Of a stretch of DNA of 64,000 bases, positions 14,078 through 62,596 are shown piece after piece. The position numbers and the translations under genes are program-made. Source of the DNA: Terriglobia bacterium. GTDB taxonomy: Bacteria; Acidobacteriota; Terriglobia; Acidiferrales; UBA7541. The first letter of the stretch is position 1; each line of letters opens with the position of its first letter. The notes beneath the pieces were generated by a model. The model had not been told where the DNA came from, did no database searches, and was given only the letters and a program-made list of their open reading frames with translations. The DNA is taken from positions 1-64,000 of the forward strand of contig JAIMAG010000013.1 of the NCBI GenBank assembly GCA_023512135.1, given 5' to 3'.

Positions 14078-14599
14078 ATGGACGAGTTGAAGCGATTGAT
14101 TCGCGAAATCCCGGATTGGCCGAAGCCGGGAATTCTGTTCTACGACCTGACCACGTTGCTGAAAGACAAGCAGGGCTTCCGGACGTTGATTGATAAACTT
14201 TCCGAGCACTACAACGGTCGGCAGGTGGATATCGTCGTCGGCGTCGAGGCCCGCGGATTCATTTTTGCTCCGGCACTGGCCTATCGTCTCGGAGCCGGCT
14301 TTGTGCCGGTGCGGAAGCCGAACAAGCTGCCCTGGAAGACGGCGCGGGTACAGTACGAGCTCGAGTACGGCACCGATGCCCTGGAGATTCACCAGGATGC
14401 TGTCCTACCCGGCCAGCGCGTGCTGATCTGTGACGATTTGCTGGCCACCGGCGGCACAGCGGCTGCCGCCGTTCGCCTGGTGCGGGAGCTGGGCGGAGAA
14501 GTCATCGGTGCGGGCTTCGCCGTCGAGCTGCTGTTCCTGAAGGGTCGCGAAAAACTGAAGGGCGTAGACGTCTTCTCTCTGGTGCAGTACGAGAAGTGA
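14078..14599 (+). CDS. apt: Adenine phosphoribosyltransferase
   Basis: A 173-residue type I phosphoribosyltransferase that salvages adenine to AMP with PRPP. Visible marks are [18 protein letters not shown], the [20 protein letters not shown] hood region, RKPNKLPW and the PRPP loop [14 protein letters not shown]. The ribosome site AAGGAG lies 6 bases before the ATG. The PRPP donor enzyme Prs is encoded near 30 kb. The start and length match the family. Confidence 0.95.
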
Positions 14600-14681
14600 A
14601 TGGCGGAACCGGCAACAGCCGCGGTGCGGACAGATGCATCCGGGCGGGATTCACGAATCCGATGCCGCAGTGGAGGTCCAC

Positions 14682-15105
14682 ATGGGCGAAATCGTACCTA
14701 CGGCAAGGATGCGCATCGTGGAGAGGCAACGGCCGCTGCGTTTCGGCGTGCACGCCGGCTATGTGTCGTGCTGCAAGGTCAAGCCGGCCGAGCCGCTGCC
14801 GGCTGCGATTGACCACTTGCTCGCGGCACTCGCGGGTTGACTGACCGGCACCCTGGCTGGAGCACTGCAAGCGCGGAATTTCCGCGGCCAACAATCTGGA
14901 AGCCGAAGTCACGGGCCGCATCGAAACAGAAGAAAAGCTGATTCGCGTCACCGCGGTCGAGTTGCACTACCGGCTGAAAATCCCGCAGGGGAAGCGCGCC
15001 GGAGCCGACCGCACGCTCGCCATCCACGAACGCTACTGCCCGGTGCACCAGAGCATCTAGCGAGGCTTCGCGGTGCAATGGTCGGCCGAAATCGAGGAAG
15101 GCTAG
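14682..15105 (+). pseudogene. OsmC-family gene, disrupted; first stop is TGA at the catalytic Cys position
   Basis: Pieces of an OsmC/Ohr-like thiol peroxidase can be read in two frames. From ATG 14682 (GGAGGT just upstream) the frame gives MGEIVPTARMRIVERQRPLR...AIDHLLAALAG and then meets TGA at 14838-14840 (codon 53), precisely where OsmC proteins have their first catalytic cysteine (LLAALAG-C-LTGTL). The same frame continues LTGTLAGALQAR. Homology then moves to the +1 frame (GISAANNLEAEVTGRIETEE, then ERYCPVHQSI with the second Cys), where a TAG at 15058 replaces an expected Gln before RGFAVQWSAEIEEG and the natural end at 15103-15105. One TGA, one frameshift and one TAG make a decayed gene the simplest reading. 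Because selA is present in this genome, the TGA may once have encoded selenocysteine. Confidence 0.7.
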
Positions 15106-15202: not shown

Positions 15203-15955
15203 TTATTCCGTCGCATCGGTGCTCTGCTGCGCGCGCTCGCGCCGCTGGCGCACCGCTTCGAACAGGACGATGCCCGCAGCAACGGAAACGTTCAGTGAAC
15301 GCACCGGGCCGGTGGTAGGAATCGAAACCAGAAAATCGCAGCGTTCGCGGACGAGTTCGTGCAGCCCCCGACCTTCGTTGCCGAGCACCAGCCCGACCGG
15401 TGCGGTCAGGTCCACACCGGTATAAGGTTTCGCAGCGCGCTCATCGAGCCCGATCAGCCAGTAGCCGGCTTGCTTCAGCGTTTCGAGTGCCCGAGCCAGG
15501 TTTTTCACGCGCGCCACCGGCAGGTGCTCGAGTGCTCCGGCCGAAACACGCGCGACCGTGTCGGTCAGGCCGGCGCTGCGTCGTTCGGGAAGGACGACGC
15601 CGTCGGCGCCGGCGGCAAGCGCTGTGCGAAGAATCGCGCCGAGGTTGTGCGGGTCCTCGATGCCGTCCAGCAGAACGAGCAGGCCGGCCGGCGACGGGCG
15701 CCGCAGCAGGTCTTCCAGGGCCACAGTCGGCCGTGCGGCGAGCAGGGCGACGACACCCTGGTGCTGCAGGGTGCCGGCAACGCGGTCCAGCTGCGCGCGG
15801 TCTTCGAACCGCACCGGGACGCCCTGTGCGCGGGCCAGCCGGACGATTTCTTCCAGACGTTGGCCATGGCGGCCGCGCGCCAGCAGGATGCGGTCAAGCG
15901 GACGTCCGGCCCGCAGGGCTTCGCGCACGGAATGGATGCCGGTGAGGACGTGCAT
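15203..15955 (-). CDS. rlmB: 23S rRNA 2'-O-ribose methyltransferase RlmB (SpoU/TrmH family)
   Basis: A 250-residue SPOUT methyltransferase that methylates G2251-equivalent ribose in 23S rRNA using SAM. The N-terminal L30e-like substrate-binding domain starts at LTGIHSVREALRAGRPLDRI. The C-terminal knotted domain carries motif 1 (DGIEDPHNLGAILRTA), motif 2 (LVLGNEGRGL) and motif 3 (IPTTGPVRSLNVSVAAGIVL). The length and motifs are full. It is followed, 2 bases from its start codon, by the stop of the upstream GltX-like gene, so the two are translationally close and probably one operon. Confidence 0.92.
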   Translation of the reverse strand: MHVLTGIHSVREALRAGRPLDRILLARGRHGQRLEEIVRLARAQGVPVRFEDRAQLDRVAGTLQHQGVVALLAARPTVALEDLLRRPSPAGLLVLLDGIEDPHNLGAILRTALAAGADGVVLPERRSAGLTDTVARVSAGALEHLPVARVKNLARALETLKQAGYWLIGLDERAAKPYTGVDLTAPVGLVLGNEGRGLHELVRERCDFLVSIPTTGPVRSLNVSVAAGIVLFEAVRQRRERAQQSTDATE

Positions 15956-36402: not shown

Positions 36403-37839
36403 ATGGCTTCCCCTTCGGACCAGATGACGAGCCGGACGGAGTGGCTGCGGCAGATTCCTTCTGTGGATGAGCTGCTGCGGCGCGAACGGCTGGTGCAGCT
36501 CGCGGCGATAAACGGGCGCGCCCTGGTGGTGGAGGCTGCCCGCACCGTGTTGGAGCAGCTCCGGCGCCAGGTGACGACGTCGCCGGAAGCCGCCCGCAGC
36601 CTGCTGGACCCGTCGCGGCTGGAGGCGGCCGTGGCGGCTGAGCTCGAGCGCATCTGCGCGCCTTCGTTGCGGCCGGTGATCAACGCCACCGGCGTGATTC
36701 TGCATACGAACCTGGGCCGCGCCCCGCTCAGCACCGAAGCCATCGAGCACCTGCGACACACCGCGACGCAATACTCAAACCTGGAATACAACCTGGCCGA
36801 AGGCACGCGCGGCAAGCGGGATGCGCACACCGCGCAACTGCTGGCGCGGCTGCTGGGCGCAGAAGCCGCTATCGTGGTGAACAACAACGCCGCCGCGGTG
36901 TTTCTGCTGCTTCTGGCGCTGGCGAAGGGTGGCGAAGTGATCGTCTCGCGCGGCGAACTGATTGAAATTGGCGAAGGCTTCCGCATCCCGGACATCCTGG
37001 CCGAAAGCGGCGCCGTACTCCGCGAGGTGGGCACCACAAATCGCACGCGGATCCAAGACTACGAGCAGGCCATCAACGAACGCACGCGGTTGTTGCTGCG
37101 GGTGCATCCGTCGAATTTTCGCGTGGTCGGTTTTACCGAGCGGCCGAGCCTGGAAGAGCTGGTCGAGCTGGGACGGCGCGCGAACCTGCCGGTGTGTGAA
37201 GACCTTGGCTCCGGCTGCCTGGTGGACTTGCACCCGTACGGCGTGGACGAGCCACTGGCGACGGCGAGTCTGCGCGCCGGCGTGTCGCTGGTGACGTTCA
37301 GCGGCGACAAATTGCTCGGCGGGCCGCAGGCGGGCATCATCGCCGGCCGAGAGGAGCTGGTGGGACGCCTGCGGCGTCATCCGCTGTTCCGTGCCCTGCG
37401 CGTGGACAAGCTGACGATCTCCGTGCTGGAGGCCACGCTGCGCAGCTATCTCCAGGGGCGGCTGGAGGAGATCCCGGTCGTGCGCATGCTACAGATCTCC
37501 CTGGGCGAGATGGAACTGCGCGCGCAGGCTTTCCTGGAGCGGTTGCGGACCCGGTTGCGAGACACCGAGTGCGAGACGGAAGTGCGCAGCGGACACTCCG
37601 TGATCGGCGGCGGTTCGACACCCGGCGAGCAGTTGCCGACACGACTGATTGCCGTGCGGAGTCGGCGGTTCTCGGCTGCGGAGCTGGAATCCCGCTTGCG
37701 CGCGCCGGAGCAAAGCTCGCCGGTCATCGCCCGCATCGAGGACGACTGGCTGGTGCTGGACCTGCGCACCGTCTTCCCCGAGCAGGAGCCGGCGCTCGCC
37801 GAGGCCCTGGTGAGCGCACTGAATCCACATCGCCCGTGA
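36403..37839 (+). CDS. selA: L-seryl-tRNA(Sec) selenium transferase
   Basis: A 478-residue PLP enzyme that converts Ser-tRNA(Sec) to Sec-tRNA(Sec) with selenophosphate. Visible are the N-terminal tRNA-binding helices (LRQIPSVDELL), PVINATGVILHTNLGRAPLS, NLEYNLAEGTRGKR, EDLGSGCLVDL and the PLP lysine in VTFSGDKLLGGPQAG (Lys 303), with the 'GGG' segment late in the chain (GHSVIGGGSTPGEQLPT). Length and motifs are complete, so the organism very likely inserts selenocysteine. selB, selD and tRNA-Sec are not in the window. The start has no ribosome site, and AT-rich AAATAA 7 bases upstream suggests a leaderless transcript. Confidence 0.94.
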   Translation: MASPSDQMTSRTEWLRQIPSVDELLRRERLVQLAAINGRALVVEAARTVLEQLRRQVTTSPEAARSLLDPSRLEAAVAAELERICAPSLRPVINATGVILHTNLGRAPLSTEAIEHLRHTATQYSNLEYNLAEGTRGKRDAHTAQLLARLLGAEAAIVVNNNAAAVFLLLLALAKGGEVIVSRGELIEIGEGFRIPDILAESGAVLREVGTTNRTRIQDYEQAINERTRLLLRVHPSNFRVVGFTERPSLEELVELGRRANLPVCEDLGSGCLVDLHPYGVDEPLATASLRAGVSLVTFSGDKLLGGPQAGIIAGREELVGRLRRHPLFRALRVDKLTISVLEATLRSYLQGRLEEIPVVRMLQISLGEMELRAQAFLERLRTRLRDTECETEVRSGHSVIGGGSTPGEQLPTRLIAVRSRRFSAAELESRLRAPEQSSPVIARIEDDWLVLDLRTVFPEQEPALAEALVSALNPHRP

Positions 37840-62501: not shown

Positions 62502-62592
62502 TGGCGGAGGAGGAGGGATTCGAACCCCCGTCCCGGTGCAACCGGGAAGCGGTTTTCAAGACCGCCGCCTTCAACCACTCGGCCACTCCTCC
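62502..62592 (-). tRNA. tRNA-Ser (anticodon TGA)
   Basis: A 91-base class II tRNA on the minus strand: acceptor GGAGGAG/CTCCTCC, discriminator G, encoded CCA, anticodon stem GCGGT/ACCGC with loop CTTGAAA (anticodon TGA, reads UCA), a long variable arm (TTCCCGGTTGCACCGGGA) and a GGTTCGAATCC T-arm. Its 5' end is 4 bases from the stop codon of the recombinase gene. Confidence 0.96.
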
Positions 62593-62596
62593 GCGT

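Follow-up and report, generated by a model that had tools for sequence, protein, structure and literature searches.

The osmC locus and its neighbours

The analysed stretch of 64,000 nucleotides, called the window here, lies within contig 35 of a draft bacterial genome (2.83 Mb, 51 contigs, 97% complete). An ATG at 14682 opens a frame that starts with MGEIVPTAR, reaches HLLAALAG and then meets a TGA at 14838-14840, which is followed by LTGTLAGALQ. The homology resumes in the +1 frame (RGISAANNLEAEVTG...) and continues as far as a TAG at 15058-15060; the TAG at 15103-15105 is the natural stop. The features of the locus, together with the selA gene farther along the window, are as follows.

14078..14599, + strand: upstream neighbour and synteny anchor, which we take from its sequence to be apt (order acyP-apt-osmC-rlmB in L004, L005, L006 and L007)
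14672..14676, + strand: GGAGG, remnant of a ribosome-binding site, seen in the sequence (a comparable purine-rich site lies 5' of the start in most orthologs)
14682..15105, + strand: relic, read as a pseudogene, of an OsmC-type selenoprotein gene (PF02566 match, identity to a TGA ortholog, synteny)
14733..14740, + strand: CCGCTGCG, junction left where 36 nt between direct repeats were deleted in frame, with the equivalent of REAYIEGFAEPL lost (alignment with L004, L005 and L006)
14838..14840, + strand: UGA, former selenocysteine (Sec) codon at the peroxidatic-Cys position (about 75 homologues share the TGA at this codon; aligned with the first Cys of Thermus thermophilus OsmC, 1UKK)
14859..14877, + strand: broken SECIS hairpin, arms GGAGCACT and AGCGCGGA, loop GCA, 4 of 8 pairs kept
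14871..14874, + strand: GCGC where orthologs have GCGCGC; the loss of 2 nt changes the reading frame and cuts into the 3' SECIS arm (aligned to L004, L005 and L006)
15037..15039, + strand: TGC, second (resolving-type) Cys, retained (matching the family's invariant C132 and, in 1UKK, the second Cys)
15058..15060, + strand: premature TAG, AAG in the sister species (alignment)
15203..15955, - strand: downstream neighbour, presumably, again from its sequence, an rlmB-type rRNA methyltransferase (same gene order in L004-L007)
36445..37809, + strand: selA, intact (TIGR00474, 572 bits, cut-off 268)

With the two frames merged and each of the two premature stops read as X, the relic matched PF02566 with 45.2 bits (gathering threshold 27.5, E=1.3e-11). 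The joined reading was needed, as the two separate unmended pieces gave no OsmC match in Pfam. The relic was 76% identical to an intact, TGA-containing ortholog of the same genus, and the shared acyP-apt-osmC-rlmB order makes it syntenic with L004-L007. Alignment through the family profile indicated that both catalytic positions of OsmC are still present, the TGA codon and the TGC falling on the Cys pair of 1UKK. The sequence-only reading, which had placed the TGA at the first catalytic Cys of an OsmC gene and had seen homology persisting beyond it, was thus borne out on both points, and the placement of the TGA is not chance because some 75 homologues have TGA at the same codon.

The in-frame TGA and selenocysteine decoding

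The codon was followed in a sample of 60 related genomes, of which the sister genome G001 (L004, also L026) is the only other member of the genus. In 18 of them, the sister included, the gene had a single in-frame TGA here, and 3 had Cys forms only. Among 399 genomes of the class, 82 had matches, nearly all with one TGA, and reading the codon after fetching and deduplication gave 76 TGA and 7 TGC genes, which means that the TGA at the catalytic position is kept among homologues and that Cys counterparts exist. In the phylum sample outside the class, exactly one in-frame TGA was present in 28/28 matches, counted per match without reading the codon itself. Because the homologues in the sister, the class and the phylum carry TGA, the codon is, on this comparison, ancestral at the locus and not the product of a decayed Cys codon. 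One genome (G079) had three Sec-type copies (L096, L098, L101), and L113 (G381:C11:155640-156017), another family member, contains a single TGA plus a single TAA within the match and may be a second copy in decay.

The seven Cys forms (L011-L014, L063, L064, L103) grouped as one clade (support 100/99) in an unrooted tree of 81 proteins; the nearest neighbours of this clade are Sec forms, and it lay apart from the group of L004, the window's sister. SelB over the cut-off was absent in six of the seven Cys genomes, the exception being G005, which has SelB and both Cys and Sec copies. Replacement of Sec by Cys is rare and is documented mainly for FdhA and SelD (review PMC13188914). The simplest reading of the tree, in which the direction stays unproven for want of a root, is one Sec-to-Cys change, and the Cys clade is a candidate for a further case beyond FdhA and SelD.

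The source genome has the whole selenocysteine machinery: SelA at the 36.4 kb where it had been noticed from the letters, SelB (395 bits, cut-off 242), a tRNA-Sec with anticodon TCA on contig 13, and SelD. The selD gene (L033:1500-1560) itself resembles a selenoprotein gene, with its own in-frame TGA (AAG-U-AAKLSPG). Since SelA, SelB, tRNA-Sec and a Sec-type SelD are present, selenocysteine decoding is, as judged from gene content, alive in this genome. Over the 61 genomes, SelB or tRNA-Sec passed the cut-off in every TGA-bearing genome, and none of the Cys-only genomes had SelB over it. Many other tRNAs lie near the tRNA-Sec cut-off, which makes tRNA-Sec alone a weak marker, and SelB was therefore added. 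A tRNA-Ser (anticodon TGA) at 62502-62594 of the window, - strand, passed the Rfam tRNA-Sec cut-off with 52.6 bits and was a false alarm, the true tRNA-Sec being that on contig 13.

The SECIS hairpin and the decay of the window copy

The region after the TGA was scanned with a published bacterial SECIS (bSECIS) model (PMC13188914): loop of 3-9 nt with a G within its first two positions, stem of 4-16 bp, spacing of 16-37 nt, and MFE of -7.5 kcal/mol or lower. The scan was passed by 75 of the 76 TGA genes, 3 of the 7 Cys genes and 39% of synonymous shuffles. The hairpin of the relatives is typically GGCGCGCU-GGA-AGCGCGYC and lies 26 nt 3' of the UGA; in live orthologs of the window copy it reads GGCGCGCT / GGA / AGCGCGC. 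The best model-conforming hairpin of the window copy reached only -3.7 kcal/mol. Because 75/76 Sec relatives pass and the window copy fails, the relatives qualify here as bacterial selenoprotein genes and the window copy only as a relic; the sequence-only reading had seen no convincing SECIS, which holds for this copy, the hairpin being present in the relatives and lost here. The free MFE z-score of the region was modest, averaging -1.16 in the Sec genes and -0.06 in the Cys genes, and the model-based scan was clearer.

Codon use indicated the same element. Hairpin codons were near-frozen in the Sec genes (Leu CTG in 76/76, Ala GCG in 65/76, GGA never at the second Gly, GCA at the hairpin Ala in 0/76), while the Cys genes, with nearly identical amino acids, used codons more freely across the region. 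The window hairpin has GGC -> GGA and GCG -> GCA, both silent for the protein and neither found in any of the 76 live genes. A compensatory pair, C-G to U-A, was seen in the hairpin of L083. In L008/L009/L042, L077-L080, L092-L095, L108, L109 and L111 the hairpin stands 18-20 nt after the UGA and not 26 nt, which suggests a shift of the SECIS element inside a single family.

Alignment with the syntenic ortholog showed three lesions within the 424 bases of the window osmC, two of which, the 2-nt deletion and the TAG, break the frame apart from the UGA. Both had been noticed from the letters alone: the +1 frameshift placed between 14841 and 14875 is the contraction of GCGCGC to GCGC, and the TAG at 15058 is a premature stop. 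The 36-nt deletion was absent from that account; in L004 the 8-bp repeat CCGCTGCG flanks both sides of the stretch that is missing from the window. Invariant residues of the family are deleted or substituted in the relic, and in nine neighbouring genes the alignment with the sister copies spanned nearly the entire length and no lesions were seen.

Overall dN/dS of osmC against the sister was 0.17, inside the range of its neighbours (0.06-0.19), so this ratio did not separate osmC from them, but polarised counts did. Counting only sites that two outgroup genera conserve, osmC had 12 amino-acid changes on the branch of the window and 2 on that of the sister; for apt, rlmB and acyP pooled the figures were 3 and 10 (Fisher p=0.0018). 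Synonymous changes in osmC were balanced (4 on each branch). The 12:2 against 3:10 ratio and the silent changes that break the SECIS argue for a dead gene and for real decay, not assembly error. Since overall dN/dS is only 0.17, much of the sequence still looks constrained, which points to a recent loss.

Origin of the relic and its live relatives

We are highly confident that a true selenoprotein gene has become a pseudogene here, lost at this one locus in a bacterium that still uses selenocysteine. The conserved TGA and hairpin, the machinery genes, the synteny, the lesions and the branch-specific decay can all be read directly from the genomes compared. A decayed selenoprotein gene was one of three options left by the sequence-only reading, and it is the one that the TGA homologues, the SECIS of the relatives and the decay on the window branch support. 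Another was a live selenoprotein gene spoiled by assembly or polishing errors, for which speak the 51-contig draft, the still low overall dN/dS and a genome able to decode Sec. We consider it highly unlikely, as errors could explain stops only and not the silent changes in the SECIS; conserved-site replacements rose, and the SECIS stem decayed, on the window branch only, the lesions crowd into one gene and spare nine neighbours, and the 36-nt deletion between 8-bp repeats and the contraction of the GC run resemble replication slippage.

The remaining option, an ordinary Cys-type OsmC pseudogene whose TGC turned into TGA during decay, could appeal to Cys homologues within the same family (genus g5), but all the nearest homologues (L004-L007, L074) have TGA and not TGC or TGT, and the Cys genes branch apart from the group of L004. 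It is next to impossible, and we reject it. That the remnant is still usefully translated, as a short peptide that stops at the TGA or as a product of frameshifting with readthrough of TGA and TAG, is hardly plausible either: start codon and ribosome-binding site are retained, but in the first piece the catalytic residue and the greater part of the fold are missing, the invariant residues are hit and the SECIS is lost.

The gene of the relatives encodes a small protein of the OsmC family that has two catalytic positions. At the peroxidatic one, SelB and tRNA-Sec would insert selenocysteine for the UGA with the help of the hairpin about 26 nt downstream, and Sec insertion in the relatives is inferred from these signals. 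The conserved Cys about 67 residues past the Sec would be the likely resolving partner, and by analogy the enzyme may be a thiol/selenol peroxidase. In the window lineage, selection on the single copy would have lapsed first, followed by the loss of its reading frame and SECIS, with Sec decoding in the genome staying intact. The dead copy is that of the window alone, and the sister copies are in all likelihood genuine selenoproteins.

The relatives probably form a large, phylum-wide OsmC selenoprotein subfamily that has Sec by default and lies outside the curated OsmC_like_Se family, one gene with three fates. The Sec dominance rests on the 76 Sec to 7 Cys genes in the class and the one TGA per match outside it; the subfamily falls into two clades (loci L037-L113). 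If this is true, the gene was kept with its SECIS, was once converted to Cys in a mostly SelB-less clade, and decayed, SECIS included, in a Sec-decoding genome; the intact, Cys-converted and decaying copies would be a natural series for studying selenoprotein loss in bacteria. The relic itself is of modest interest and the live family is the more useful result, a live selenoprotein group that is mostly unrecognised so far in this phylum. Annotation pipelines would truncate such genes at the TGA or label them pseudogenes, and the comparative SECIS evidence tells live Sec copies cleanly from the dead one.

Knowledge of OsmC-like selenoproteins dates from the Sargasso Sea survey, with three genes (PMC1088965), and they are described from the Sargasso Sea and GOS metagenomes under COG1765/PF02566 with the motif UxxT (PMC1088965, PMC2398784, PMC13188914). 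Our family is like them in belonging to OsmC, in its in-frame TGA, in the bacterial SECIS close downstream and in having Cys homologues, but it departs from UxxT, having U[ML]xGT (UxxGT) with the Thr at +4; this comparison is by motif, as the published alignments are figures. Classical OsmC/Ohr proteins (TIGR03562, TIGR03561; 1UKK) share both catalytic positions with our family (GCF..., CPVSR) and have Cys where it has Sec, and TIGR03562 gave the family 17-32 bits against a cut-off of 85.8. Sec65 and Cys132 of L004 align with the first and second Cys of T. thermophilus OsmC, and by analogy with OsmC/Ohr the live protein probably reduces hydroperoxides, its Sec making the attack. The intact ortholog, modelled with AlphaFold from its sequence alone, gave a poor fold (mean pLDDT 49.7), which was left unused.

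The NCBIfam family NF041052 (OsmC_like_Se, "OsmC-related (seleno)protein", cut-off 95 bits) is likewise OsmC-related with Sec members. The window-clade relatives tested scored 19-22 bits (Sec) and 27 bits (one Cys), the second-clade members tested gave no match, and the cut-off was passed by 0/151 genomes of the class. Because the scores stay far under the cut-off, the live family looks like an unmodelled subfamily. Two further loci came up in the OsmC_like_Se search, G114:C259:1951-2346 and G110:C761:1202-1579, both OsmC-related, below its cut-off and with one in-frame TGA.
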